The position numbers and the translations under genes were made by a program. A stretch of 56,897 nucleotides of DNA from a virus: positions 1 through 56,897 of IMG/VR virus record IMGVR_UViG_3300031673_000051. One strand, 5' to 3'. Under the pieces are notes generated by a model, which was not told the DNA's origin, did no database searches, and was given only the letters and a program-made list of their open reading frames with translations. Shown in pieces: positions 25,683 through 56,136 of the stretch (positions are counted from its first letter, which is position 1; every line of letters begins with the position of its first letter).

Positions 25683-26935
25683 TCATACTAAAAATTCTTT
25701 TATAAAGTACTCCTGAGCTTTACCTTCTAATACTTTTTGTTGTAAACATGCCACCGTGATTTTGTTGGGTTTTAATTCAATTTTATTCTCATCTAAATCC
25801 AAATCAAAAAACCTTTTCATGAATTCACAAAATACTTCTTTGTTGACATAACCTAATTTTAACTTTAAATCAATACGCCCAGGTCGAAGAAAAGCAGAAT
25901 CGAGCTTATCTATATAGTTAGTTGTAAAAATTACAATCCTCCCGTGAGAAGATATCAAACCATCCATTGCATTTAAAATATCAGAGATACCCAAAGAAAA
26001 GAAATCCTGTAAAGATGTTCTTTTTCTGCAGCTTTCTTTACCGGACTGACGGTATCTTCTTTCTTTTCTTTACCTCCCATTCTTTGGTGTATTGAATAAT
26101 TAGCATCTATATCTTCCACTACTAAAATTTGAAATTCCTCATTTTCACAATCATCAAAAGCTTTTTCTATAGAACCTACACACTTTGCAGGAAGAATTTT
26201 AATATCATAATCAAATTCCGCAGCGATAGCTTTGATTAAAGAAGTTTTTCCTGTTCCAGAAGGACCATATAGTAAAATACCTAGATGATAGGGAATTCCA
26301 TTTTCAATATACCAAGTTTCTTTTTCTTGAAATTCTGAAATGGTTCTTAAAATTAATCGCTTTTCTTTCTTCGGCATAAACACACTGTCCATAGACCGTT
26401 TTGGCTGATCTCCCGCCCTCTTCCAATATTCATCTCTATAAACAAATGTCCTTGTTTTAGAACTGTCTTTTATAAAACCTCTCTTTATTTCTTCCACCAT
26501 TTCATCAAAAAATCTATGAGACCGACCAATTTTCAATATCGACAATTCTAACTTATCTCTTTCTGTTGCGCTACTTTCTAAACGATTCAATTTCAAAATT
26601 AACGGTCGATTCCTATACCAAATAACATGAGTTCCCATGCCTATTGATTTTGTTGATTCCTTATCACCATATCTTCCATTTACAATATTAATTTTACGAA
26701 GTTTCTTTAAGTATCCCTGCTTCATAAACCAAGTCATAATTAAATAATAAGATTCATTAGAAGACATTACTGTAAATGTGGTTGTAAGATGTTTCTTTAA
26801 AAGCCCAAAAACTTTTCTTGGTATATTTCGACAAAAGAAAGTTAATACTCCTAATATCCAAGCAGAAATAGCTGTAGTTAAAAACTGATTACCCCCAGAT
26901 ATTTCTGTAATGTACTGAACAATTTGAGTAATCAT
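25683..26935 (-). CDS. BCS1-like AAA+ ATPase with N-terminal membrane segment (frame interrupted)
   Basis: The first segment (ATG 26935) has a membrane helix near residues 18-35 (LTTAISAWILGVLTFFC), a BCS1-type N-domain (RTFVYRDEYWKR, then MPKKEKRLILRTISEFQ), Walker A GPSGTGKTS and Walker B ILVVEDIDA, then hits a TAA. Adding one A in the GAAAAAG run joins RTSLQDFFSLGISDILNAMD, sensor 1 IVIFTTNY and the arginine-finger region SAFLRPGRIDLKLKLG, which are conserved in BCS1-type AAA proteins. Eukaryotic BCS1 translocates folded Rieske protein across the mitochondrial inner membrane; bacterial and phage relatives are little studied. It would act at the host inner membrane. It sits just downstream of the two tRNAs. 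Confidence 0.8.
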
Positions 26936-28835: not shown

Positions 28836-29306
28836 TTATTCTTCCTTGACAACTTTCCATTTTTCAAGAAAAGGTTTAACACAATTTGGATACTTATCTA
28901 TTATCTCTGAAGCTTTTGCATTCAATCTTTGCATATCTGGTCCATTTGGATGCCGGATAGGTCGATCATCCTCCCAGTTACCCATCAACATTGAATCTCT
29001 AAGTACCACCAAAGAAGCAATAGCTTTAGTAATATGTGACAGACCACTATCCCCGTCGGTATCTTCACCTTCCCACCACTGTTCAAACACATGCCGCCAC
29101 ACGGCATCAACGTATACTGAAGCTCTCACTCCGGCGTCTCTGTAATTGTGGGCACCATACTTTCTACCACCTTCCAACATAGCAAGTCCGACCTCGGACA
29201 TAACCTGCATAGGTACCAGGTGTATGGGAACTTTACGGATACCCAGGGCATCCTTTGGATTCGTTGCTTTCTTTCTAGGTGGAACTATTTTAATTTCATC
29301 CTGCAT
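28836..29306 (-). CDS. MazZ-like dATP/dGTP diphosphohydrolase family protein (DUF5664)
   Basis: 156 residues. Family pattern: NPKDALGIRKVPIHLVPMQV, then GLAMLEGGRKYGAHNYRDAG, DAVWRHVFEQWWEGED and S-G-L-S-H-I-T-K-A-I-A-S-L-V-V-L-R-D. This matches DUF5664, now described as an N-terminal dATP/dGTP diphosphohydrolase domain and found in phages that remodel the purine pool. No PurZ or DatZ partner is seen in the window. It directly follows the MazG-like gene. Confidence 0.75.
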   Translation of the reverse strand: MQDEIKIVPPRKKATNPKDALGIRKVPIHLVPMQVMSEVGLAMLEGGRKYGAHNYRDAGVRASVYVDAVWRHVFEQWWEGEDTDGDSGLSHITKAIASLVVLRDSMLMGNWEDDRPIRHPNGPDMQRLNAKASEIIDKYPNCVKPFLEKWKVVKEE

Positions 29307-29310
29307 ACTA

Positions 29311-29754
29311 TTATTCCTTCCGAGGTAATTGCTCTACTGTCTTCTCAATAGCAGCTCTACGTCTTATGTACCCTGCCACAACTTTATCAACAGCAGCTCT
29401 CTCAGCTGCTTTATCCCGGTTCTGGGTTATACCACACTCAGGAGTAAATCCTTCTGGAAAACGAGTTGTAAGTTTTGCCTCATTTATATCCATGAGTTCA
29501 TCAGTAGATGACTCGTACACAATCAAAACATACATCATAAAATGAAGTATATCAGACAACTCAATCAACACATCAGTCCGGGATAATGGTTCACCAGGAT
29601 ATGCCATAAATTTCTTGTAGTTATTAAGTAACTCACCTGCTTCACACAACATTCCCGTAAGTCCATGAAGTAAATTTGGGTCAAAAATCTTACCAAAATC
29701 AGGACTTTGTAAACGCTTGACTAAGGCCATGAACTCTTTTTCTTTACTTGGCAT
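29311..29754 (-). CDS. MazG-like nucleotide pyrophosphohydrolase
   Basis: About 147 residues from MPSKEKEFMALVKRL. All-alpha NTP-PPase pattern: GLTGMLCEAGELLNNYKKF (E-x-x-E) and ELSDILHFMMYVLIV (E-x-x-D), then INEAKLTTRFPEGF. Such enzymes remove pyrophosphate from (d)NTPs; phage copies may alter nucleotide or ppGpp pools. It overlaps the end of the kinase gene by 11 bases. Confidence 0.8.
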   Translation of the reverse strand: MPSKEKEFMALVKRLQSPDFGKIFDPNLLHGLTGMLCEAGELLNNYKKFMAYPGEPLSRTDVLIELSDILHFMMYVLIVYESSTDELMDINEAKLTTRFPEGFTPECGITQNRDKAAERAAVDKVVAGYIRRRAAIEKTVEQLPRKE

Positions 29755-30235
29755 TATTAAACTCCCACACCTCACTTACCTGACTGAAACCCTCTTCTTC
29801 AGTTGGTCTTTCATAAATGGCAGTAAACTTATCCCATACACCCTCCCATAGAGCTCTGTCGTCCTGACCATGAGGATTTTGCATCCGCCTATCCACACTA
29901 GTTTTCTTATCCAGTACTGGCATAACTATTGCCACAGCTTCATAACCATAGCGCCTTGCCAAAGTAAGATACTCTTTTCTATGTGCTGAAGACATGTTTG
30001 TCTCATCAACAAGGATATCCACACCAAGAAGCATAAACTGCTCTATAGCTTGCTCGGCAGTATTAAAAATAGTTGGTTCCAATTTGGGATTAAAGACATA
30101 ATCTCCGCCCCCAATCATATATCGAAGAGCATCCCTGGCTATGACAACAATATTTGGGTTCTTAGCCAAAAGTTTCTTTACCAAAGTAGATTTACCGGAA
30201 CCAATATTTCCTACCATTATGTAAAGTCTCATCAT
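29744..30235 (-). CDS. Polynucleotide-kinase-type P-loop kinase
   Basis: 163 residues. Walker A is GNIGSGKST near residue 9; DILVDETNMSSAHRKEYL fits the Walker B and lid region of AAA_33 / T4 Pnkp kinase domains; R-M-Q-N-P-H-G follows. The 3' phosphatase half of T4 PseT is absent. Likely phosphorylates 5' ends of RNA or DNA, perhaps for repair of tRNA cut by host nucleases (family knowledge). Confidence 0.8.
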   Translation of the reverse strand: MMRLYIMVGNIGSGKSTLVKKLLAKNPNIVVIARDALRYMIGGGDYVFNPKLEPTIFNTAEQAIEQFMLLGVDILVDETNMSSAHRKEYLTLARRYGYEAVAIVMPVLDKKTSVDRRMQNPHGQDDRALWEGVWDKFTAIYERPTEEEGFSQVSEVWEFNNAK

Positions 30236-31292: not shown

Positions 31293-34200
31293 TTAACCTT
31301 TCCTTTGAGATTTATTAAACAAATTCTTAAATTGTGTAGAAGTCTTTTTGGATACAGTATCTTCCTTCACACCTTCCTTAGGTGGCACTGGCTGATTTAT
31401 ATCCAAAAGTGAACGTATTGTTCCAACAGGTTTAAGATGCTGGACCATTTTCTTTGTTGCCGCAATAAATTCTGCTGAAGGAGGAGCGACTGATGCCTGC
31501 AGGGCATTTTCTACTGAACCCGCCACGGCATCAGCAAAATCTTTACTCCCAAATCGAGGTATGTCTCGAGTTTCTCCATTCTCCAAAATCTCCATATCTA
31601 TAACCTCAGTAGGATGATCTATCTTATTCTTATCTGGATCATCTTCAAGGTTAACCAATTCAAAATGTAGATACTCATTCCGATGGCAGCACCAACGTTT
31701 ATCATGTACCAAATCTCGAAAACTCCGGTAAATCTGAGGATTTTTATCCAACGAAAGTCCTTTATCTGGACAATTAATTCCTGCTCTTTGAAGTATCTGC
31801 TTTGAATCTTCACTTACCTGACCTAAATCATATGTAACTAACACAATATTAAAATTATATACCTTTTTAAGATCAATGATAAATTTTCTAACCTTATTCA
31901 ACGGAATCTTATCCCCAGGACGTCCAATTATGCGCATCCCAAAATCTGTCTCCACTACAGGTGCTTTCTCCACCCGCATGGATCCCCCATCTTCCAAATC
32001 TTCAACAGTTCTATCTGTCCAACCACTAACACAAGACATAGCAATACCCAAAGCATCCCCCATACCTGATTTATTGCTATAAGCTATATCCACGTGCAAA
32101 TACCGAGGAACACGTCTTGGAATTCGAATGGCACTAAAATCCAGATACCCAGCAAAATCCACATCATCATGTAACCCGGTCTCAATTGTCAACATGCTAA
32201 CTGGATCTCTTTTAGTGGAATCATAGCAATCCACTATCAATGCTTCAGAAGGAAATAGCTTACTCTTTCGTAGCCCCGTTATTGATACTCCTGCGTAGTC
32301 TCTCAATGCGCCCACGATATCACGTTGATGGGCTTCCAAATATTCTATAGGAACCCAAAGAATTTGAAAACCATTCTTCGCAGCTAAAACTATTGCCTCT
32401 TGATCCGGCACAAACGCAGTACCCTCTCCTTGACCCAGAATTTTAGATGGTACATACACATTACCCAACTGCACCGGGAACTTAACACCACAGTACTCCG
32501 CGGCTTCTTTTGCTTCCCAAACGGGGATATCCACGATATACACATTGGGTGAACTTTTCATCTTTGCCACAAATGTATTCAAAAATGATAACGTTTCCTG
32601 CTTAGAAGCAACTAAGAAAAACTTACCCAAAGTCAATTTTCTATCATCCATCTGAGATCTAAGAACAAATCTGTTTTCAAATCGTCGATAGCCCGCCTCA
32701 AAAGCCTGAAGAACTCGAATTCTTTGCTTATCTGACTCTGAAGGAGAATCAACCTCATCCATCAACGCAGCAATGATATCATGACCTTGAACACCAAATC
32801 CCTTTGAGTAAGGAGAACCAGAAACGTATTCAAAAATAGGAAATTCTATCTTTGGATTTTGTTCAGATCCGCACACTCTACCTCTTTCCTTAAACCAAGG
32901 AGACTGCAAAAGATAACTTTGAAGAAGACCAAATCCACGAGAGGCACCAAGTGATGTCGTTAGGTTGAAAAATACTACAGCCATCTTACCTGCAGCAGTC
33001 TTTCCAAAAAATGCCCAAGGATCGCGAAGACAATTATGAACAACAACCCCTTGACATATAAAATTCTTTGGACTACCCTCTGCCATAACAACATCATAAG
33101 TATTCTTTTTACCCCCATACTCTATTGACTCAATTTTACCAAACAGTGTTTTACTAAAATTTGAATTGGTATACTTAGTCAAAAACCCTAGCTTCTCTTC
33201 AATTTCCTTATCAGATCGTACAATAATATAGGGTAAACCTTTTAATTTCTTATCAAAAAAGCTATCAGGTCTATCTAAACCATCAACCTCAATATACCAA
33301 CCTCCCACAAGAAAATCAACTGATTTAATATAACCATTATTCTTAACTATAACGTGTATGTCATGATCCAATCCATTTTGAGTAAGCCAATCGTCTACTC
33401 TCCCTTCAAATTTACTATCACAAAAATGACCATCTTCCGCCTCAAAGGGCTTACCATACCCCCAACTGGAACGCTTAGCAAAATCTCCACATTTTCTTTT
33501 TGTTTCTAATTGCTTTTGAACTATTTCATTCTTCTGTTCTTGACTTAATGAATTTCTCCACTTCTTCCAACCTATAACAGCTTTTGCAACAGCTTCTGGA
33601 GTATGTAATTGTTCAATAAGTTGCTGTCTTTCTTCCGGAGATAAATTTTTCAATCTTTTCTTAGTAGCTGCTGCACATTTAGCATTCCTTTCCGAATTGC
33701 TCCAAACTTTTTGTTCCATAATCCGACACCATTCTTCCCAATCCATAGAATCCAATCGCTTGAGTACCCTCCGAGCCACATCCTCATCAGAAATATTCTT
33801 CCAATGTTCAATAAGTCCTTGAACAGCTTTCACCCTAACCTCTGGTATACGCAAATGTTTGGTTTTTTCCTTACTCTCATCTAAAGAAAACAACTCCCAA
33901 TAAGCCAAAGCAATACCCTGCATTATCTCATGAAATTCTGTACTCTGCTTAGCCTTGTTACACTTAACTACCCCTTCCGGAGACTGCACTGCCAACAAAC
34001 CCTTTTCACAAATCCGATATCTTTCTTCTTCTGTCCTACTCGCCCATACCTTCTTGGTAGCATCACTTATTATTCCGGATACATCACTCCTGGAAAGATG
34101 AAGATCATCACCATATATAAGAACTTCATCTCCAACAAGAATATCTTTAAGAGGTTTCCAACCATCTTTTGTCCAAAACTTATGATCAAGAGTTGTCCTA

Positions 34201-34736
34201 ATTTTTTTATATCTCCCACCCTTAGAATTAGTGGTATCCTTACGATTAAATAAAAGATCTGCAAACTTTATAACTACTTCATAAACAGGTTTCTTCCCCG
34301 AAAAAATAACCTCATCTACCTTATGTGCTCCAACATTACCCCTCTCATCCACAGCCAAAGTATAATTCAACCCATTTTTATAAGCTTGATTTAAAGCAAC
34401 CCACTTCTTCTTTTCACAATCGTAAACAGGACAGTAACCATCTATGCATAAAATCGTATGCATTACGTGAGCAATGCCTAAAATTGCAGAAGTCGTTTTG
34501 CCAGTTCCAATTGCGCCTGTAAATATTGGGAGGTTCTTTTCAGGCAAATTAGAAAGCTCAGATAGAACCCTATGCCATATTGGGTATAATGCCTTACCTC
34601 CTCTCAAAGAAACTCCAAGATAATCAGTATCCGTCAAAAATTTACGCATTGAAACTGGTATTTCCGCGTAATCAGTACCATACGCAGCCGTCAACAATGT
34701 TTCCATCCGTATTTTTTGGTTACTCTTCTTTGCCAT
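31293..34736 (-). CDS. Terminase large subunit with inserted intein
   Basis: 1147 codons; about 675 residues after removal of codons 97-568. The ATPase has Walker A GAIGTGKTT (74-82) and Walker B IIAALMDEVDS; the RNase-H-like nuclease domain follows with YLHVDIAYSNKSG, a middle acidic segment and KDFADAVAG near the end. It drives ATP-dependent DNA packaging through the portal and cuts the concatemer. The gene directly follows the probable small subunit with a 17-base overlap. The intein sits a few residues past the Walker A helix, a place where loss of splicing would kill packaging. Confidence 0.92.
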   Translation of the reverse strand: MAKKSNQKIRMETLLTAAYGTDYAEIPVSMRKFLTDTDYLGVSLRGGKALYPIWHRVLSELSNLPEKNLPIFTGAIGTGKTTSAILGIAHVMHTILCIDGYCPVYDCEKKKWVALNQAYKNGLNYTLAVDERGNVGAHKVDEVIFSGKKPVYEVVIKFADLLFNRKDTTNSKGGRYKKIRTTLDHKFWTKDGWKPLKDILVGDEVLIYGDDLHLSRSDVSGIISDATKKVWASRTEEERYRICEKGLLAVQSPEGVVKCNKAKQSTEFHEIMQGIALAYWELFSLDESKEKTKHLRIPEVRVKAVQGLIEHWKNISDEDVARRVLKRLDSMDWEEWCRIMEQKVWSNSERNAKCAAATKKRLKNLSPEERQQLIEQLHTPEAVAKAVIGWKKWRNSLSQEQKNEIVQKQLETKRKCGDFAKRSSWGYGKPFEAEDGHFCDSKFEGRVDDWLTQNGLDHDIHVIVKNNGYIKSVDFLVGGWYIEVDGLDRPDSFFDKKLKGLPYIIVRSDKEIEEKLGFLTKYTNSNFSKTLFGKIESIEYGGKKNTYDVVMAEGSPKNFICQGVVVHNCLRDPWAFFGKTAAGKMAVVFFNLTTSLGASRGFGLLQSYLLQSPWFKERGRVCGSEQNPKIEFPIFEYVSGSPYSKGFGVQGHDIIAALMDEVDSPSESDKQRIRVLQAFEAGYRRFENRFVLRSQMDDRKLTLGKFFLVASKQETLSFLNTFVAKMKSSPNVYIVDIPVWEAKEAAEYCGVKFPVQLGNVYVPSKILGQGEGTAFVPDQEAIVLAAKNGFQILWVPIEYLEAHQRDIVGALRDYAGVSITGLRKSKLFPSEALIVDCYDSTKRDPVSMLTIETGLHDDVDFAGYLDFSAIRIPRRVPRYLHVDIAYSNKSGMGDALGIAMSCVSGWTDRTVEDLEDGGSMRVEKAPVVETDFGMRIIGRPGDKIPLNKVRKFIIDLKKVYNFNIVLVTYDLGQVSEDSKQILQRAGINCPDKGLSLDKNPQIYRSFRDLVHDKRWCCHRNEYLHFELVNLEDDPDKNKIDHPTEVIDMEILENGETRDIPRFGSKDFADAVAGSVENALQASVAPPSAEFIAATKKMVQHLKPVGTIRSLLDINQPVPPKEGVKEDTVSKKTSTQFKNLFNKSQRKG
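33033..34448 (-). mobile_element. Large intein with Vsr/PD-(D/E)XK-type endonuclease in terL
   Basis: Codons 97-568. Starts with Cys97 (CIDGYCPVYD), includes a TTLDHKFWTKDGWKPLKDIL block B-like segment and ends VVVHN with Cys569 as +1. The insert of ~300 residues has NUMOD-like repeated helices (LSPEERQQLI, LSQEQKNEIV) and a nuclease core SKFEGRVDDWLTQNGL, SVDFLVGGWYIEVDG, DSFFDKKLKG, resembling very-short-patch-repair-fold homing endonucleases. The endonuclease looks intact, so the element may still home. Confidence 0.88.
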
Positions 34737-44566: not shown

Positions 44567-45622
44567 CTAACTAAAGGTTCTGGGCTTCCTATCTGAAGGT
44601 CTATAAACTTCCTGCCAAACTTTCCATATCTCTTCTCGTAATTTCTCCTCCAAATTTTCGCCTTCAATCTTAGTGACCCAGGATTTCATTTGTTTATCTT
44701 CACCCCAAAGCTTAATATGCTGAGTTTTATTCTTAGCCGCAGCCTTACCATTTTGTACCTCACTTAGAAAATACAAATTGGAGGAGATGTCATCCATGCC
44801 GTAGTCGAATAAAATTTTAAACTGCCCGTCTCTAAAAGGAGGACCCACCTTATTTTTTACGGCCTTAAAGCTCGTCCAAACACCGATTACCTTTTCTTGG
44901 GTATTCGTTACAGCAGGACCGTGCTTCAAATGTATACGAACTGATGGATAAAACATTTGAGCTTTTCCACCAGGAACAGTCTCACCACCAAATGCAGAAC
45001 CAAAATTATCTCTTGTTTGATCAATAACCACCAAAGTTGTGTTGCTGTACGAAAGGGCCTTCAAATACTTTCGGTATCCCAGTGACATCTGCTTTGCACG
45101 GTAGGCGCCATAACCTTGATCGTCCATTTTCTTATCAGCTTCAATCTTAGCGGGAAGAGCAGTAATGGTATCCGTAACAACTATCTTAGGCTTCTTATCC
45201 AGAATAGTGCACTTTGTATCTTTAAAGATAATCTTGGAAAGCCAGACATCAAAAAACTCTTCAATGGTTGCCGGAAAAGCATCATCGGTATCAAAGTCTT
45301 TTACATTGGTTAGCTTCTTAAAATCCAAACCATAATAGCTGGCAAATCTAGGATCCAGGGTGTGCTCAATATCACCATAATATGCACCCATCTTCGCCCT
45401 CTGAGCAAACCCCAGAATAGACGAAGCTATTACAGACTTACAGGTACTTGATCCTCCAAAAATCTGAACGATTCTACCAATGGGAATGCCACCAGGAAAT
45501 CTATTTGCAATAGCAAAATCCAAAACAGTGCATCCCGTCTGCAAAAAATCAGTGACGTCTGGAATACCTATAACTTTGCTTGCAGCTTTAGAAGTTTTTT
45601 CAATATCGGATTCTTGTGCCAT
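44567..45622 (-). CDS. uvsX: UvsX/RecA-family recombinase
   Basis: 351 residues. RecA core: Walker A GGSSTCKS (56-63) with Cys where most RecA proteins have Gly, like T4 UvsX (G-P-S-K-S-F-K-S); KIVVTDTITALPAKIE (Walker B region); LVVIDQTRDNFGSAFGG and VPGGKAQMFYPSVRIHLK (L2 region). It would form ssDNA filaments and promote strand exchange with the SSB-like and mediator-like proteins encoded upstream. C-terminal basic tail RKPRTFS. Confidence 0.85.
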   Translation of the reverse strand: MAQESDIEKTSKAASKVIGIPDVTDFLQTGCTVLDFAIANRFPGGIPIGRIVQIFGGSSTCKSVIASSILGFAQRAKMGAYYGDIEHTLDPRFASYYGLDFKKLTNVKDFDTDDAFPATIEEFFDVWLSKIIFKDTKCTILDKKPKIVVTDTITALPAKIEADKKMDDQGYGAYRAKQMSLGYRKYLKALSYSNTTLVVIDQTRDNFGSAFGGETVPGGKAQMFYPSVRIHLKHGPAVTNTQEKVIGVWTSFKAVKNKVGPPFRDGQFKILFDYGMDDISSNLYFLSEVQNGKAAAKNKTQHIKLWGEDKQMKSWVTKIEGENLEEKLREEIWKVWQEVYRPSDRKPRTFS

Positions 45623-46555: not shown

Positions 46556-47488
46556 TTACTCCGTCCTTCTCCTGCGACTTTGAACATCTGCTATCTTTGC
46601 CTTGATAACAGCAGCTTGTTCCGAATCTTCAACAACCTCTTTAGTAGATTCAAACTGAGTGTCACTGGCACTAACTCGTTCTCTACGAGATGCTCGAGTA
46701 GTTTCCTTTTCAAGGGGTTCCTGGGCAGTTTCCTTTTCAGGTTCCCTGGATTCTCGGCGTGAACGTGAACCTTCCGTACTCGACTTCCCAGCTGATTCAG
46801 AAGTAGTAGGAGTGGCTTTCACACCACTAACAGCTAAAGCCATTTCATCCGGATCTGGCTTTAAAAGAATATCCTCAAAAGGAGGAAGATCCTCATACCA
46901 AGATTTTGGAATTGGCTCGGTTTTCGTGAGTACAAATCCAACATATTCCGTTCTCTTACCGTCTTTACGAGTAAACTCAATATCCCTGCCGTCAACTGGA
47001 TCAGTAGGATCTACCTTTTCACCTGTTCTCCTATCCTGAGACAGAGTGCACACTGCTTTGTAAATTGAAGGCGGACAATCAAACCAATGAGTACCTTCAT
47101 CCTCAGAAGCAACATCAGTTGTATCCACTACATAAAGAAGGAAACGACGACTTGTCTTAAGATCGTTTATAACGTCTGAACTTATATTCTGCCGACGTAA
47201 TTCCTGTGCATGATTGCAGATAGGACAATCCATATTAAACATCTCTTTCATACACAAAAAGGTCGACTTACCAGAACCTATTTGAGTATGTATGTGTATC
47301 TCCATGGCAAAAGGTCCTGTAGTACTCGGAGCCACTATCCGAATAAAATTATTGCCCTTCGGCTTTTTGGTATTGTACTTAGTAATACCCAATCGCTCCA
47401 ATTTGCTCGTATCCACGAAATCAAAATTAGATCCACCTGTACTCATATTAGCTCCTGCGTTGAGGGCTTTCATTCTTGCTTCGTCCAT
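46556..47488 (-). CDS. Candidate ssDNA-binding protein (gp32-like)
   Basis: 310 residues from MDEARMKALNAGANM after GGAGACAAAACTG. N-terminal domain includes NNFIRIVAPSTTGPFAMEIH, then FLCMKEMFNMDCPICNHAQE (C...CPIC...H, like the zinc region in T4 gp32-type proteins) and RRFLLYVVDTTD. A disordered Ser/Arg/Glu-rich C-terminal tail (about 225-310) may recruit partners. Directly upstream of the mediator and uvsX genes. Confidence 0.7.
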   Translation of the reverse strand: MDEARMKALNAGANMSTGGSNFDFVDTSKLERLGITKYNTKKPKGNNFIRIVAPSTTGPFAMEIHIHTQIGSGKSTFLCMKEMFNMDCPICNHAQELRRQNISSDVINDLKTSRRFLLYVVDTTDVASEDEGTHWFDCPPSIYKAVCTLSQDRRTGEKVDPTDPVDGRDIEFTRKDGKRTEYVGFVLTKTEPIPKSWYEDLPPFEDILLKPDPDEMALAVSGVKATPTTSESAGKSSTEGSRSRRESREPEKETAQEPLEKETTRASRRERVSASDTQFESTKEVVEDSEQAAVIKAKIADVQSRRRRTE

Positions 47489-47556
47489 CAGTTTTGTCTC
47501 CAAATCAAAATATTAGTATTGTTTATCTTTTAACTCTTAATATCTTTTCAAACACT

Positions 47557-47737: not shown

Positions 47738-48691
47738 TCACTCCTTCCAGGTTTCAAAACAGGCTCTTGCAATAAGAGCACCCATCAAACTTTTCTTACC
47801 ATAAAAAGTACTATTAGAAAAAATCTTCAACAGGTGTGTAACGTCTAACGCGTCCTCCACGTTATCATACTTCTTTAACTTATTATACAAAAACGTCATG
47901 AGGGAAAACCTAATTCTCTCAGAATCTTCATTAATAGCATCAAAAGTTGTAATAATCGTTTTCCATTTCTTTCTTCGAGCAGCAGGACCCATCGATATAA
48001 GATTAAACAAGTCAAAAATAGTTTTCTCCTGCTCTGTGCCATTTACTATAAGTTCAACAACATCATCCAAGTTAGTCATCTCAGCAACTTTTTCAAGTGC
48101 AACTAAAGCAGCCCTCGGAGATCCATCATTAGTTTGCACTAAAGCTTCTATAATACCCAATGTAATTATCCATCTTTTCTTTATGCAGGCCCGTGTAAGA
48201 ACTTCCCTTATCTCCTCTTTCTGTAACAAGCTAACTGTATACTCGGCACACCTATTACGAAGAGTTGGTATGAGACTTTCCGCATCCGTTGTACAAAAAA
48301 TGAAGTAACAATGAGGAGGATTATCCTCTATCACTTTCAATAAACATTCTTGTGCTTTGCCTGAGAATTCATGGCATTCGTCAAATATATAAACTTTAGC
48401 CCCACCTCCAAAACCTATCAAAGGAGCGTTTTCAGCAATACCTCTAACCGTACCAATTCCATTTGTATTAGCTGCATTTAATTCAAATATAGAATCAGAT
48501 AAAGCTCCGAATTCCCTGGACAAAATACGTCCAATGGTTGTCTTGCCACAACCCGTTGGCCCTTTCAAAAGAATAGCATGTGGCCGATGTTCCTTAGACT
48601 GTTTTAACATAGCCACTAAAGCCCCAACAACGGCTGAATTACCTACTATATCCTCGAAAGTTGTGGGCCTGATTTCCTGATAGAGCGACAT
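47738..48691 (-). CDS. Clamp-loader ATPase (RFC/DnaX-like)
   Basis: 317 residues. Walker A LLKGPTGCGKTTIGRIL (about 41-56), Walker B VYIFDECHEFS, sensor 1 YFIFCTTDAE and the SRC-like LRNRCAEYTV. C-terminal collar helices follow. It opens the DnaN-like clamp on primed DNA; a separate small subunit is not recognised. AGGAGGTAATT and an extended -10 promoter precede it. Confidence 0.88.
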   Translation of the reverse strand: MSLYQEIRPTTFEDIVGNSAVVGALVAMLKQSKEHRPHAILLKGPTGCGKTTIGRILSREFGALSDSIFELNAANTNGIGTVRGIAENAPLIGFGGGAKVYIFDECHEFSGKAQECLLKVIEDNPPHCYFIFCTTDAESLIPTLRNRCAEYTVSLLQKEEIREVLTRACIKKRWIITLGIIEALVQTNDGSPRAALVALEKVAEMTNLDDVVELIVNGTEQEKTIFDLFNLISMGPAARRKKWKTIITTFDAINEDSERIRFSLMTFLYNKLKKYDNVEDALDVTHLLKIFSNSTFYGKKSLMGALIARACFETWKE

Positions 48692-48745: not shown

Positions 48746-51307
48746 TTACATGCCTGACATTTCATACCAATTCTTAGCTCCGTACTCCCAAGAAACACTC
48801 ATCGGAACATCTCCCTGCCAATCAAACATTTTTGAGCACAGAATTTTTTCACCCAACTCAATGACATCTTCCATCTCATCAAGATGAGTATCCAAAATAA
48901 TAGCATCATGAATTTCTGCAACTGACAAAGTTCTAAACTCCCGACGGACTAATTCTGCATCAATTCTATTACCACCAGCTTGTAACAAATGGTACGCTGG
49001 CCCTTGTATTGGAGTATTATACAACTTATTTATATTAAGTGGTCCTGGACGTCTTGCTCCTGTGACCAATTCAACATAACCATTTTTCTGATAATCATGA
49101 ATAGTTTTGAGTTGCCATTCTTTAATATAAGAATATTCATCCCAAAATCTGGCCTGTACCGAAGCTATATACTCCGGATCAAGACCCATTGAGCGGGCTA
49201 TGGAGGCGGGTATTGCTCCATAAATACTGGGGAAAAAGAATCCATTCTTTGATTTATTTCTTATTGCCTTTTGCTCTACTGATTCAGTGTAAACCTCCCC
49301 CTCCCGGCCATAAGCTCTACTCGCCCACATCCAATGTACATTATAACCATCTTGAATCTGTTTTGTGAGTATGGGATCTTTTGAAATCATCGCAGCAACA
49401 CAAATCTCTGCACCAGAAAAATCCGGTTCAAGAAATATGTGTCCCGGCCTTGGAACAATACACCTTCTAAACGTTTTCTGCCGTAAATTATGCTTAAAAA
49501 CATTCTGAATGTTCGGACCGTCACAAGCAGACCGATAAGACCTTGTTATATTAAGACTGTAAGATGGGTGAGCTTTCCAACTGGGATCAACAAGTCGACG
49601 GTACTCCGCAGCTCTTTCCAAAACTTTTAAGCCACTACGGTAAGTGGTGACATTTGTTAAAATCTTCTTAACCTGGAGATCATCTGTCGTACTAAGTATT
49701 TCTGCGAACACATTCTTATCAGTACAGGGTTTCTTACCCGCAGTCATACGCTTTGATGTAAGGGGAACACCACAAATCTCATAGAGCACCTTACCAATGT
49801 GTGCGGGTTTACCTATATCAAATGCTACTCCTTTAGGATCATTTTTGATACTCTCATTATATTTAATAACAGCTGGAGTACCCTTAATGGCCTTCACACA
49901 ATCCTCTATCTCAGTCGTAAAATCATCTTCAACAGCTTTCAAAGCAGTTTCATCTATTTGAATACCATTATATTTATAATTAGCCAATGTGCGGAGGCAT
50001 TGGATGAAAAAATCATTAAACTTCTTTAAATTCCCATCCAACATGGCTTCTTGCTTATAGTAAGCCATTAAAGTATACCGGGAATCCCAACAGTTATAAT
50101 CACACACCTTTTCAAGGGGTTGGTCAAATATCTTAGTGACGTCAACCATCTTCTTGTACACATGCCCCGTCATTTCAAAAACCTGGTAGGCCAATCCGGT
50201 TGTCCTGGCACTACAATTAATCACATGAGCAGTTACCATGGTATCATGTATAAAGTTCGTCATTGACTGTCCAAACTTGTTGCGCCCCCACAATTCCTCC
50301 ATATAATAATTCTGACAGATCTTAGGTGTACTACTTTTCAAAAAATGTTTCCACGCAGCAGATATCCTAACCTGTTCTCCTGAACTAAAAATGCCCTCAA
50401 AACCAAGAGGAATGAAATCCGCATACTCGATGCTATCAGTAAACGATATAGAAGCCACCTGGGCATCCCGTTGAAAAGAATCAAGCATATTAGCTTCATA
50501 ATCAAAGGATACAGGCTTATCATGATCACAATACCCCTCTATAGCAGCAATTGCATCATCAACATTAGTTAAGCACCTATTACCTTCTGCAGTCAATGGT
50601 TGAGGAAGAGGCTCACCAAGATAACTTATTACATTAGCCAAATCATATGCAAGAATCACCTCATCATCGGGAACATCAGCCCTACCCTTTCTCTCCAAAA
50701 AGAAAGCAGGTCGATGTGCACAGCCAACCCAGCAATTTCGTTCGTGGTACGGAAAAATCTTACCATGTAGCAGACCTTCATCTGGTAATTTGCTAAAAGC
50801 CTTGGATTTCAAAACAGCTTGGATCGCAATTGTTCCAAGACAAATAATCAATTCCGGCTGTACTTCTTGTATATCTTTTTCAAGATTTGTAAGACAACAG
50901 TTAATTTGATCCTTCGTTGGAGCCTTATCCCGTCCCCGAGAATCTCTTCCAGGAAAACACCGAACAACATTGGTTCTCGTGCAATCCACATCCAAATCAA
51001 TACCCGAGTAGCCACAGAATTTAGTGAGGAGCCTACCTGCACCCCCTGAAAAATTTCGACCTGCTCTGTCATCCACACCTGAGGGGCTTTGACCAACAAT
51101 CAAGATTCGCTTTCTTCCTTCTCCAAATCTTTTCAATTTGGGATGTCTACACTTATCACAGAGACCACAGGTACTGCAGTCATAAATTTTTGCTGGACGA
51201 GCAGCTTTCTTAACACCGGAGCCCCCGCGTTTTCGCGTGAACCTCTCAGGGTGCTCCTGTTGAAATAACTCCCAACTGTCCATAAAAAATGCAGGTTGTT
51301 TTGACAT
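48746..51307 (-). CDS. Uracil-DNA glycosylase (family 4) fused to family A DNA polymerase
   Basis: 853 residues. Residues ~40-230 are UDG family 4-like: cysteines in CSTCGLCDKC (44-53), GQSPSGVDDRAGRNFSGGAG (72-91), T-R-T-N-V-V-R-C (around 110-117), NCC near 136 and AHRPAFFL. Residues ~255-430 form a 3'-5' exonuclease-like domain (SFDYEANMLDSF; D-x-E). The polymerase has motif A EPDFSGAEICVAAM (627-640), motif B with R...K...F...YG (about 683-697) and motif C EIHDAIIL (798-805), where the usual HDE is HDA. It would replicate the genome with the clamp while the UDG domain may read or remove uracil. Confidence 0.9.
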   Translation of the reverse strand: MSKQPAFFMDSWELFQQEHPERFTRKRGGSGVKKAARPAKIYDCSTCGLCDKCRHPKLKRFGEGRKRILIVGQSPSGVDDRAGRNFSGGAGRLLTKFCGYSGIDLDVDCTRTNVVRCFPGRDSRGRDKAPTKDQINCCLTNLEKDIQEVQPELIICLGTIAIQAVLKSKAFSKLPDEGLLHGKIFPYHERNCWVGCAHRPAFFLERKGRADVPDDEVILAYDLANVISYLGEPLPQPLTAEGNRCLTNVDDAIAAIEGYCDHDKPVSFDYEANMLDSFQRDAQVASISFTDSIEYADFIPLGFEGIFSSGEQVRISAAWKHFLKSSTPKICQNYYMEELWGRNKFGQSMTNFIHDTMVTAHVINCSARTTGLAYQVFEMTGHVYKKMVDVTKIFDQPLEKVCDYNCWDSRYTLMAYYKQEAMLDGNLKKFNDFFIQCLRTLANYKYNGIQIDETALKAVEDDFTTEIEDCVKAIKGTPAVIKYNESIKNDPKGVAFDIGKPAHIGKVLYEICGVPLTSKRMTAGKKPCTDKNVFAEILSTTDDLQVKKILTNVTTYRSGLKVLERAAEYRRLVDPSWKAHPSYSLNITRSYRSACDGPNIQNVFKHNLRQKTFRRCIVPRPGHIFLEPDFSGAEICVAAMISKDPILTKQIQDGYNVHWMWASRAYGREGEVYTESVEQKAIRNKSKNGFFFPSIYGAIPASIARSMGLDPEYIASVQARFWDEYSYIKEWQLKTIHDYQKNGYVELVTGARRPGPLNINKLYNTPIQGPAYHLLQAGGNRIDAELVRREFRTLSVAEIHDAIILDTHLDEMEDVIELGEKILCSKMFDWQGDVPMSVSWEYGAKNWYEMSGM

Positions 51308-51835: not shown

Positions 51836-52879
51836 TTAATCTGCACCTCCTGTCCGCATTAGATACTGTAACTTTTCTGCTTCAAACAAAATCAAACCAT
51901 CAGCATAAAACTTGAAACTTGAACACTTACTTGCTATCTCTCTCAAAAAAGTGGGATTGACTGAAAAGGCTAACTTCAAATCCTCCCTTACCTTAACATC
52001 TATCTGCTCAACAAGATTAGCTTTCTCCGGCACCTTAGAAGTAAGAGTACAAACTCCTCCTTCAATTTCAATTAACATTATCCGATCAAGCGGATTTATA
52101 TCTCCAAGTAAAGTTGAGTGCCGTTCAATAATTGAAGTTAATTTATCACCAAACTCGATCTGTTCATACGTATTGGAACTAGAAAAATATTGTAAAAGTT
52201 CCGGGTATTTTCCTGGAATTAGGCAGGTAGTAATGCACATACCATCCTCCAGGATAGCCATAAGAATATTATCACCAACTGCGGATAAAGAAACAATATC
52301 ACGTTGATACCTCTTTAACAAGTCAATAAACTTAACTGGTATTGTACAGGTAATACCTGAATCCTCTTTTAACTCCCATTTTGTAACTCGGTATCTATCT
52401 GTACTAAAAATTGTATCCTTGTTAAGCTGAACACCACAGTATGGTCCTGCCACAATATCCTTGGAAACTCCAAAGCGGCAAAAACCAAGTGCCTCCACCA
52501 CATCAGACAACAGAAGTGGATCTATACTCACCCGCTCTTCATTATCTGCAAAGGGTGTGGATTGAAACGTAGGCGGAGTTATCACAAAAAACTTTCCCAC
52601 AATCTTATTAGTCTTTATCTTAAGTTCATTCTCTTTAACTTGCAAATCAACTTCTTCTGCACTAAGAGAGATTAAAAGATCAAGAACTTCTTTAGATATT
52701 GAACAGCATAAACCAGTATCAATTGAACAAATTAAATCCGCCAAAATAATTCCATTAGTAGCCTGGATATGATTCCCCTCAATTTGAAAATACTGAAGCT
52801 CAGGCATAAGGGGATTACTTCCAAGCATTGGCGCCATCTTTTCAAGAATCGCCACAAATGTACTTCTATTAATTTTCAT
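51836..52879 (-). CDS. dnaN: Sliding clamp (DnaN-like)
   Basis: 347 residues from MKINRSTFVAILEKMAPMLG after GAGGAG. Three similar ~115-residue domains as in bacterial beta clamp. Landmarks: FFVITPPTFQSTPFAD, TDRYRVTKWEL, LIPGKYPELLQYF and a C-terminal LILFEAEKLQYLMRTGGAD in the place of the bacterial MPMR tail. The clamp tethers the polymerase. A bacterial-type beta clamp beside a UvsX-like recombinase is a mosaic. Confidence 0.85.
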   Translation of the reverse strand: MKINRSTFVAILEKMAPMLGSNPLMPELQYFQIEGNHIQATNGIILADLICSIDTGLCCSISKEVLDLLISLSAEEVDLQVKENELKIKTNKIVGKFFVITPPTFQSTPFADNEERVSIDPLLLSDVVEALGFCRFGVSKDIVAGPYCGVQLNKDTIFSTDRYRVTKWELKEDSGITCTIPVKFIDLLKRYQRDIVSLSAVGDNILMAILEDGMCITTCLIPGKYPELLQYFSSSNTYEQIEFGDKLTSIIERHSTLLGDINPLDRIMLIEIEGGVCTLTSKVPEKANLVEQIDVKVREDLKLAFSVNPTFLREIASKCSSFKFYADGLILFEAEKLQYLMRTGGAD

Positions 52880-52902
52880 CAATAACTCCTCAATCAAATT
52901 TA

Positions 52903-53844
52903 TTAAAATACTGGGGGCTGAATATTCTTATTTAATTTTGGTGGTATGTGCATCAATTCTTCATCCTGTAGTCGGGCATAAAACAAAGTATTCGCCTTCA
53001 ATCTTTCAGCCTGTTCTGTCTTAAGTTTTTCAGAATCAACACCTATCGTCCTAAAATATTCTTCTATCCTTTCAACTATCACAGCAGGATAAGTAATACT
53101 GTAGTGTGAATGCACAGTATCCGTCTTAGCTAGGGAAACATCAGATGCAGATACCACATATGGTGTACACATAAAGTTGTACTTCTTTGTTCTTACATCA
53201 AACTTAGGAACCATAATCCTTCCAAAGCCAGCCTGCTTCAACCAAGTAGTTGAATCAACACTATAGAATGGATACCTTACCATGAATTGGAATCCAGTAA
53301 CTCCGAAACCATGAACCCTGGTACCCAAATTTTTCTGCTCAATATAATCAAAAACTCTATCAAACAAATTCCTGAGACTTCTTACGGGTATTCCACGAGC
53401 AATACCACCAACACCAATGTACTCATATTCGTTAACATACCTCTCTGCCCACTTAAAATCCTCACCATAATGGTACACTGGAACAGGACGAACCCCCCTA
53501 CTCTCCATGTACTTTTGATTCACCCAACCTGCTTCGACATCTCCAATAGCATCAAGATTTGCATAGGCATATAACCTGTGATTCCATTTCAGAATGTAAT
53601 CAATGTAGTCATCCAAATATTTTTGAGTATCCTTAACTTGTACATTCTCCAAAGTAAACGACCCCGAATCCAAGAAAATCTTCACCTCTGGAAGCTCCTC
53701 TAATATCTGGGTTACTTCAGTATGAGCAAAAAATGATTCCAAAGCAAGAATCTTACCCTGACGACCCATTTCTATAAGTTCATCTGTATGCTGTCGCTTG
53801 GATGCAGTAAGGAATCTGGCTAAATATATTCTATTGAAAGACAT
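52903..53844 (-). CDS. TGT/DpdA-like 7-deazaguanine transglycosylase-family protein
   Basis: 313 residues. TIM-barrel TGT-like motifs: KIFLDSGSFTLE (compare DSGGFQ), YAYANLDAIGD, YIGVGGIARG (compare GGLxxGE), RVHGFGVTGF and YSVDSTTWLK. In tRNA-guanine transglycosylases the Asp residues bind and attack the base; phage and bacterial DpdA use this fold to insert 7-deazaguanines into DNA. With QueD at 36087-36464 this suggests DNA or tRNA base exchange. Starts after GGGGAGTAGT. Confidence 0.75.
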   Translation of the reverse strand: MSFNRIYLARFLTASKRQHTDELIEMGRQGKILALESFFAHTEVTQILEELPEVKIFLDSGSFTLENVQVKDTQKYLDDYIDYILKWNHRLYAYANLDAIGDVEAGWVNQKYMESRGVRPVPVYHYGEDFKWAERYVNEYEYIGVGGIARGIPVRSLRNLFDRVFDYIEQKNLGTRVHGFGVTGFQFMVRYPFYSVDSTTWLKQAGFGRIMVPKFDVRTKKYNFMCTPYVVSASDVSLAKTDTVHSHYSITYPAVIVERIEEYFRTIGVDSEKLKTEQAERLKANTLFYARLQDEELMHIPPKLNKNIQPPVF

Positions 53845-54167: not shown

Positions 54168-54470
54168 CTATTCAGTGTAACCTCTGGCTCTATCCTCAAC
54201 GTTATCCGGCTCGAAGAAGTATGAATTATAGTTATCAGTTATGATATCCCTATCCTTAAATACTTGCCGCATATCTTTCCACCCTATAGATTGACCAGAT
54301 TCTGCATCTTCAGCTTCAATAAACACGTCAAGTTCTTTGATATACATGCTGTCAGACCCGCCCTCGCCTCCATTATCTGTCCAGAAGCAAATGACTTCAC
54401 CTAATCCACACATATTAAAACGACTTGAACACATTCCATATTCAGAATGCTCTTTCTCTCTAACTTTCAT
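54168..54470 (-). CDS. Hypothetical protein
   Basis: 100 residues; Cys at 13, 20 and 27 (MCSSRFNMCGLGEVICFW), then acidic beta-rich part. Start overlaps the end of the glycosyltransferase gene. Between its end and 54078 there is only a 25-codon frame I cannot support. Confidence 0.55.
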   Translation of the reverse strand: MKVREKEHSEYGMCSSRFNMCGLGEVICFWTDNGGEGGSDSMYIKELDVFIEAEDAESGQSIGWKDMRQVFKDRDIITDNYNSYFFEPDNVEDRARGYTE

Positions 54471-55521
54471 CTAACTCTCCCATATACTCCACACATCTTT
54501 TAATCGTAGACTCATACTGCTTTATATCAATGTAGAAAGGATTGAATTTTAATTCCATCAAACGAGTCAGTTTATCCACAAGATCATCCTCACTCGAATA
54601 CAGCAACCGTTCATCACCTACCACTTCTGGATAAGCAAACTGGTTAGGACACAAAGGAATACTATGCAAAACATAAGCTTCTAACTGCCCAATTCCGAAC
54701 GTTTCTTCAGTTTTCAACGAAAGAATTACTTTCGCTTTATTTAAAAGTTTGTAATACTCTTTTCTACTACTGGCCTGAAGAACAGAAACGTCAGTAAACT
54801 TCTGCTTTATTGTATCTATAAGACGAGAGTTACTTTGTTCCAATCTCCCACTAATAAGTATTCCTTTTTTCTCCTCAAAGGGTATGGGTTTGGCATAGGC
54901 TACAACATCCTCTTGATAGAAAGGAAAACCAACCACTACCAAATTATTGAATTTCCTTCCAAAGTAATCCTCAATCTTTTTCGTATGATAGTACGTAGCC
55001 ACAAAAACCTTATCATAGGTGTCAAATATCATCCTATCTATCCATGGCCTACCCTTTGTCCTACTCCAAACATCCCCGTCACACCAGCAACCCGCGTGTA
55101 GGTATCCGCAGGCTTTCAACTTTGGATTCGTCAGTCTCAAAAGCTGGATCGCGGGTGTCATCAATCCTGGAAACTCAACATCTAAACAGAGTATCTTATC
55201 CGGTTTAATTACAGTTAACGCCTGTATTTGTGCACATTCATACTCCAAAGCCTTATAAGGATCAGTGAAATATTTAGTTACCTTGGCAAGAGGAAAGTAG
55301 GGATTATGAGGATCTACCATTTGAAAAGATACATCCAACTTTCTCAACTCACGCCTCCACACTTGGATCCAATCAGCCGTGTATCTATTTTCACAAGGTA
55401 ATTGAGGTAGTACTGTAATCATATTAATCATCCTCAGTGAAACATCTGTCCGTAATTCTTGGTGTAATTCCTGAGCCGTTATCCTCACACGAACAACTTT
55501 CTCTTTTCCATACAAATTCAT
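54460..55521 (-). CDS. GT-B glycosyltransferase (GT4-like)
   Basis: 353 residues with two Rossmann-like halves. N-half: ITVLPQLPCENRYTADWIQV, then KILCLDVEFPGLMTPAIQLL. C-half: KGILISGRLEQSN, then LSLKTEETFGIGQLEAYVLH and S-I-P-L-C-P-N-Q-F-A-Y-P-E-V-V, the E-x7-E-type donor-binding loop of GT4 enzymes. It transfers a sugar from a nucleotide-sugar; acceptor (DNA base, virion or host surface) is unknown. Next to a PIG-L-type deacetylase. Confidence 0.82.
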   Translation of the reverse strand: MNLYGKEKVVRVRITAQELHQELRTDVSLRMINMITVLPQLPCENRYTADWIQVWRRELRKLDVSFQMVDPHNPYFPLAKVTKYFTDPYKALEYECAQIQALTVIKPDKILCLDVEFPGLMTPAIQLLRLTNPKLKACGYLHAGCWCDGDVWSRTKGRPWIDRMIFDTYDKVFVATYYHTKKIEDYFGRKFNNLVVVGFPFYQEDVVAYAKPIPFEEKKGILISGRLEQSNSRLIDTIKQKFTDVSVLQASSRKEYYKLLNKAKVILSLKTEETFGIGQLEAYVLHSIPLCPNQFAYPEVVGDERLLYSSEDDLVDKLTRLMELKFNPFYIDIKQYESTIKRCVEYMGELDES

Positions 55522-55631
55522 CTCGTGCGGACTATTGTATAAAATGCTCTACACATATTCTTAGTATACCCAAGATTAACCGTTCGAAATACATTTCCGG
55601 TTTTAACCACCCAACAAATTCTAGAAGCCAT
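55518..55631 (-). CDS. Tiny hypothetical protein
   Basis: 37 residues: MASRICWVVKTGNVFRTVNL, then YTKNMCRAFYTIVRTR; GGAG upstream; overlaps the glycosyltransferase start. Very basic. Confidence 0.4.
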   Translation of the reverse strand: MASRICWVVKTGNVFRTVNLGYTKNMCRAFYTIVRTR

Positions 55632-55644
55632 TATATTCTCCAAT

Positions 55645-56112
55645 CTATACAAAATCCAAAACTATACCTTCAAACAAGAAATATTTCCAATCACTTTCCC
55701 ACAAGGATTTTTGGTCCGGGTAAAACTTGTTAAGTGCAGCTCTCTTTTCTTCCTTATCCTTCTCACTCAACTCTCTGATAAAACTTGCTTCCATACTCAC
55801 GGAATAGTATCCCAACCCACATCCACTTAATCGTGCAATACTATTAACCGCCTTGTGCAGAGGATGATGGTCAGTTACATCAGGTACCAAACAGGTAAAC
55901 CTCTGAGCTCTAGCCAACTCCAAATATTTGTATAACCCCTCAAACTCCAATTGATCTACAGAAAATCCTAACTCATAACCTGCCTTCTTGGCCAATTCGT
56001 AACGTTCTGGAGTTGCATCAAGATATACCACCCAATCAATCAAACCTTTTTTGATTAAGGAGTAACAGCCGATCAAACAATCATCCGGATGGGGAGCAAT
56101 AATAATATTCAT
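55645..56112 (-). CDS. PIG-L/LmbE-family deacetylase-like protein
   Basis: 155 residues from MNIIIAPHPDDCLIGCYSLI. A-P-H-P-D-D is the metal-binding signature (A-H-P-D-D-E in most; Cys follows here instead of Glu). A Rossmann-like N-half, then VTDHHPLHKAVNSIARL, where His-x-x-H fits the third ligand. The family removes acetyl from GlcNAc-type groups. With the adjacent GT-B enzyme it may build an amino-sugar on an unknown acceptor. Confidence 0.75.
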   Translation of the reverse strand: MNIIIAPHPDDCLIGCYSLIKKGLIDWVVYLDATPERYELAKKAGYELGFSVDQLEFEGLYKYLELARAQRFTCLVPDVTDHHPLHKAVNSIARLSGCGLGYYSVSMEASFIRELSEKDKEEKRAALNKFYPDQKSLWESDWKYFLFEGIVLDFV

Positions 56113-56136
56113 ATTGTGTACCCTATTCCTTCCCAA

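Follow-up and report, generated by a model that had tools for sequence, protein, structure and literature searches.

A family A DNA polymerase from a clamp-encoding phage, carrying a uracil-DNA glycosylase fold with altered catalytic residues

The stretch of viral DNA analyzed here (56,897 nucleotides, IMG/VR record IMGVR_UViG_3300031673_000051; hereafter, the window) carries on its minus strand a single ATG-initiated open reading frame of 853 codons that runs without interruption (Table 1). The first-pass annotation, made from the sequence alone, had described the product as a uracil-DNA glycosylase (UDG) fused to a family A replicative polymerase, and had proposed an HMM search as a check. 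The Pfam search bore out the fusion, with matches to the UDG superfamily (PF03167; residues 62-188, E = 2.5e-19) and to DNA_pol_A (PF00476; residues 492-849, E = 4.1e-40), separated by a 3'-5' exonuclease match (PF01612; residues 262-413) that falls marginally short of the cut-off (E = 1.3e-4). In the PHROGs collection, the whole protein corresponds to the phage DNA polymerase family phrog_17 (E = 1e-79). The N-terminal domain is the only UDG-family match in the whole record. An identical 853-residue protein is encoded on a second viral contig, and relatives with 75, 67 and about 48-57% identity, all of which keep the full layout, are present on other viral contigs, whilst none was found in bacterial genomes.

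Table 1. Features of the UDG-polymerase locus (positions in the window)
Feature	Position	Strand	Evidence
UDG-exonuclease-polymerase fusion, 853 aa	48746..51307	-	open frame; Pfam UDG, exonuclease and DNA_pol_A; AlphaFold2 model, mean pLDDT 81
N-terminal extension, residues 1-40	51188..51307	-	Q4-x-x-F7-F8 at 51284-51298, invariant among close relatives
UDG-fold domain, about residues 41-235	50603..51187	-	Pfam core 50744-51124; structure matches
Putative Fe-S cysteines C44 and C47	51167..51178	-	alignment to Thermus UDGa
Putative Fe-S cysteine C117	50957-50959	-	alignment to Thermus UDGa
Putative Fe-S cysteine C138	50894-50896	-	alignment to Thermus UDGa
Q73, position of motif-1 Glu41 of Thermus UDGa	51089..51091	-	alignment
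R199, position of catalytic His155 of Thermus UDGa	50711..50713	-	alignment, close relatives
3'-5' exonuclease domain, residues 245-430	50018..50575	-	D269, E271, E337 (Asp in Klenow), Y404, D408
Family A polymerase domain, residues 431-853	48749..50017	-	motif A D629, O helix R683/K687, motif C
Motif C, H800-D801-A802	48902-48910	-	alignment to Klenow
Sliding clamp (DNA polymerase III beta-like), upstream neighbor	51836..52897	-	phrog_947, E 2e-32
Clamp loader, downstream neighbor	47738..48691	-	phrog_5846, E 1e-55
gp32-like single-strand DNA-binding protein	46556..47503	-	PF08804, E 1.7e-13
RecA/UvsX-like recombinase	44567..45622	-	PF00154, E 3.2e-37; phrog_97

The full-length AlphaFold2 model resembles Klenow fragments (TM about 0.8 by target length). 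Because the top 50 matches of that model in the PDB were polymerases alone, we modeled and searched the UDG part on its own. The model of residues 1-245 has a mean pLDDT of 80, which rises above 90 across residues 61-160, and in Foldseek searches it matched Thermus UDGa (1UI0 and 1UI1) and Mycobacterium UdgX (6AJO) at E values of 1e-11 to 1e-13, with a best TM to family-4 UDG/UdgX structures of 0.8 by target length. The UDG fold, whose absence from a predicted structure would have spoken against the first reading, is thus present at the N-terminus.

In the polymerase domain, motif A (D629), E634, the O-helix R683 and K687, and H800-D801 of motif C are intact when aligned to Klenow. The catalytic aspartate pair (D629 and D801), the O-helix Arg/Lys and the match to the Klenow fold place the protein in family A. 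Motif C reads HDA, not HDE, and it had been suggested that catalysis may differ on account of this IHDA sequence. The motif is indeed there. However, D801 is kept, and each of the 23 phage polymerases that we aligned has A, S or D directly after the motif C aspartate; HDE is therefore not diagnostic within this group, membership of family A rests on the two aspartates and the fold, and we rejected IHDA as a mark of altered catalysis. The exonuclease domain keeps D269, E271, Y404 and D408 of DEDDy motifs I and III. Its motif II aspartate is replaced by Glu337, and glutamate occupies this position in every member of the clade to which the protein belongs; judged by the alignment, this substitution is a more clade-specific departure than IHDA. 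A DpoZ-like aminoadenine polymerase was also considered, and gave just a weak general PolA match, far below the cut-off.

To place the protein, we built a maximum-likelihood tree from the exonuclease-polymerase part of the polymerases. The window protein groups with those of two viral records (L003 and L004), Edwardsiella phage ZHS, and Vibrio phages MAR10 and SSP002, with support of 100/99. The UDG domain is present in every clade member scanned. Members share a gene order of beta clamp, UDG-polymerase, clamp loader, gp32-like single-strand DNA-binding protein (SSB) and UvsX/RecA. A beta clamp of phrog_947 was found in all seven whole clade records searched, as well as in the window itself, and was absent from the matches in 13 further records that encode phage family A polymerases, mostly UDG-fused, which include SPO1, LysYB1, Serbin and PMBT14; part of the sequence may be missing from some of the 13, and the search would overlook a clamp that had diverged strongly. 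Strong matches to the clamp loader family were likewise restricted to the clade. Clade members also have two adjacent phenylalanines (FF) among their first eight residues (MSFF or MGFF in the ZHS and MAR10 groups), and this motif, Q4-x-x-F7-F8 in the window, is possibly a clamp-binding peptide. Given the genomic association and the conserved motif, the protein is a candidate clamp-dependent replicase.

Several other genes in the window deserve mention. A queuine tRNA-ribosyltransferase/DpdA-like gene (52903-53844, minus strand; phrog_887) adjoins the beta clamp; a gene of this kind often precedes the clamp in the clade, and is also found near the polymerase in L003 and in four further records (L020-L023). 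Its presence suggests 7-deazaguanine modification of the DNA. Near the replication genes, the region 54460-56136 (minus strand) holds a glycosyltransferase-like gene and a weak PIG-L deacetylase-like gene. A nucleotide-metabolism cluster (28836-30235, minus strand) comprises members of the dATP/dGTP diphosphohydrolase N-terminal and all-alpha dUTPase families and a nucleotide/polynucleotide kinase-like gene. In the product of the T4-type portal protein gene (19950-22487, minus strand), residues 95-264 correspond to an intein splicing domain, and a 1147-residue open reading frame (31293-34736, minus strand), for which no host-protein family was identified, has a sub-threshold intein match (E = 2e-7). 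Finally, an AAA ATPase (25973-26935, minus strand; phrog_7485) carries a BCS1 N-terminal domain (PF08740, E = 2e-20), which is best known from a mitochondrial protein.

We then compared the UDG active site residue by residue, in an alignment of the window domain with Thermus UDGa and about 30 phage UDG domains. The cysteine set for an Fe-S cluster that had been noticed at the outset holds up in full, in that C44, C47, C117 and C138 align with C13, C16, C84 and C100 of Thermus UDGa, and all four are invariant across 13 UDG domains. The domain probably holds a 4Fe-4S cluster. The pocket residues Phe54 and Asn80 of Thermus UDGa are also kept, as F86 and N113. Other active-site positions are changed: Glu41 is replaced by Q73, Gly42 by S74, Glu47 by D79, Asn89 by D122 and His155 by R199. 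As a result, the family 4 motif 1, GE(A/G)PG, reads GQSPS, and motif 2 (HPxxLLR) begins with RP, the catalytic His being replaced. An earlier proposal had been that loss of the pocket Asn/His residues on alignment would argue against a UDG, and the outcome is divided, with the Asn retained and the catalytic His lost. The score against TIGR00758 is 71.7 bits, below the curated cut-off of 125.3. A UdgX-like cross-linking enzyme was rejected, given GQSPS instead of GEQPG and the lack of a His in the aligned KRRIH loop, which holds the nucleophilic His109 of UdgX.

What these substitutions might cost can be gauged from Thermus UDGa, in which k2/Km falls from 2.4e5 for the wild type to 2.7e2 for E41Q and 9.4e1 for H155S, that is, by about 900- to 2,500-fold for each single change (PMC5387724). 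The Gln at motif 1 is not decisive alone, since Gln is the family 1 UNG residue at position 41 and combining E41Q with G42D in Thermus UDGa restored most of the activity, so that the double mutant was nearly active (PMC5387724). Given that rescue, the several relatives that have Q-C at the Glu41-Gly42 positions together with the His, and the His that lies one position before R199 in the window (H198), where a shifted register is possible, weak activity in some relatives is possible.

The pattern of conservation separates the fold from the chemistry. Among six distinct close relatives (the window included), the His position reads R/H/Y/S/H/H and the Glu position Q/Q/Q/T/Q/Q, so that His is kept in three of the six, whilst the four cysteines are invariant and most have a recognizable pocket, with Q at motif 1 and N80. 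Invariant columns make up 36% of the UDG domain, versus 31% of the exonuclease and 23% of the polymerase. As its conservation is no lower than that of the other two domains, the UDG domain appears to be maintained, and the invariant cysteines and conserved columns, set against the variable Glu and His, suggest that the fold has been kept whilst the glycosylase chemistry has not. Across the clamp clade as a whole, Glu is found at position 41 in 0/14 members and His in 3/14; among non-clamp fusions, His is kept in 12/15. N80 is kept in 5/14 clade members, F54 is lost in more than half, and none of the four cysteines is present in MAR10 or SSP002.

Based on these observations, we favor, with a probability of about 0.6, a clamp-assisted replicative polymerase in which the UDG fold serves as a non-catalytic, DNA-contacting or structural module. 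The family A polymerase of this tailed phage would copy the phage genome whilst tethered by the phage's own sliding clamp, and would work together with its clamp loader, SSB and UvsX. The UDG fold, which a 4Fe-4S cluster probably stabilizes, would have lost efficient glycosylase chemistry through the Glu41-to-Gln and His155-to-Arg changes, and would brace the polymerase or contact duplex or single-strand DNA, with bases not being excised. Weighing against this view are the retained N113 and F86, the recognizable pocket of most close relatives and the His present in three of the six.

An alternative is that the domain reads uracil or modified bases without excising them and makes the polymerase pause, which would be an excision-free analogue of the read-ahead stalling of archaeal polymerases. 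Such a role would fit the retention of the uracil-contacting Asn and Phe (N113 and F86) alongside changed chemistry residues, the phage's own dUTPase-like gene, the TGT/DpdA-like gene that adjoins the clamp, and PDB entry 9QHS, whose description names a phiLo family A polymerase and a modified template. However, with N80 kept in just 5/14 clade members and F54 gone from more than half, uracil reading is not a clade-wide function, and the window yielded no thymidylate synthase that would hint at thymine modification, although the record may be a fragment. We consider this reading unlikely for the protein studied here. The idea that thymine modification of the genome accounts for the UDG domain was set aside on the same negative result for the window, which may be only part of the genome. 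It is also conceivable, if rather unlikely, that the clamp-clade domain has turned from a glycosylase into purely a reader or DNA tether, which holds or samples template bases close to the polymerase and leaves them in place whilst the FF peptide docks on the clamp, and that clamp-less SPO1 types, in which the His is kept, use their UDG domain for processivity.

The first-pass annotation had gone further, in proposing that uracil is sensed or removed enzymatically during synthesis. An active glycosylase that clears uracil from template or nascent DNA would fit the retained fold and Fe-S cysteines, and some fusions, such as that in MW202455, retain every catalytic UDG residue in the alignment, which implies that this architecture can host an active enzyme. 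In the window protein, two chemistry residues are changed, each at the cost in Thermus UDGa given above, and the His varies even among close relatives; moreover, AP sites generated in the template ahead of the phage's own polymerase would presumably be harmful without further repair. Excision is therefore not supported, and we regard it as quite improbable; the domain is probably not a working glycosylase. Least probable of all is a vestigial passenger from an active ancestor, which would account for the stepwise loss of catalytic residues over the clade, and for the absence of the four cysteines from MAR10 and SSP002, but sits poorly with UDG columns as conserved as those of the exonuclease and polymerase and with the UDG domain found in each of the clade members scanned.

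Fusions of a UDG to a polymerase occur repeatedly in phages, and the role of the UDG part is not addressed in the literature that we found; a search of incomplete coverage returned no dedicated study of UDG-fused phage polymerases and no function for the fused domain. The comparison made here sets the maintained fold, with its cysteines and overall conservation, apart from catalysis, for which the Glu and His are gone, ties the loss of catalytic residues to phages with their own sliding clamp, and leaves three testable alternatives for the UDG part, namely excision, reading and tethering. Labeling the clamp-clade domains as active uracil-DNA glycosylases is probably wrong.

The UDG-PolA layout itself is already known from SPO1, LysYB1, Serbin, MAR10, ZHS and other phages. 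With a UDG superfamily domain N-terminal to exonuclease and DNA_pol_A domains in one protein, the window polymerase is of the SPO1 type, as stated in the first reading; the N-terminus of the SPO1 polymerase (gene 31) matches Thermus UDGa (1UI0) at E = 4e-28, and an SSB gene is annotated nearby in SPO1 too. Publications on the UDG superfamily from around 2000 had already pointed out that the SPO1 polymerase is homologous to UDGs, and some deposited family-4 UDG/UdgX records are named "phage SPO1 DNA polymerase-related protein". Unlike the window protein, the SPO1 polymerase lacks the Fe-S cysteines and yet keeps the His; an intron interrupts its gene, next to which a dUMP hydroxymethylase is annotated, and no beta clamp was found in the SPO1 genome in the phrog_947 search. 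Three SPO1-like relatives (L010, L015 and L016) have UDG-polymerase genes in two parts, and L015 and L016 show a gap similar to the annotated intron of SPO1.

Closer in clade are the polymerases of ZHS and MAR10/SSP002, which share the gene order, the exonuclease motif II Glu and degenerate UDG motifs, but are only about 23-24% identical to the window protein and have HDD at motif C where it has HDA; those of MAR10 and SSP002 also differ in lacking any of the four cysteines. The phiLo polymerase (9QHS), for which our incomplete literature search returned no paper, has a UDG-like domain near its N-terminus that matches that of the window, but is a distant protein of 1142 residues. More generally, matches to the window's UDG domain were found in 25 phage records, several of them inside annotated DNA polymerases. 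Thermus UDGa (1UI0) and UdgX share the fold and the Fe-S cysteine positions, but are standalone proteins with the motif-1 Glu and catalytic His, and UdgX has the KRRIH loop in addition. A functional parallel is vaccinia D4, a UDG that acts as a polymerase processivity factor (PMC10253040) and for which a catalysis-independent role is reported (PMC1936997; PMC10253040). D4 differs in being a separate subunit that is tethered to the viral polymerase through A20 and has UDG activity of its own. In both cases a UDG fold has been recruited to a replicative polymerase, and the role of the module in the window protein may be comparable to that of D4 by analogy, not by descent.
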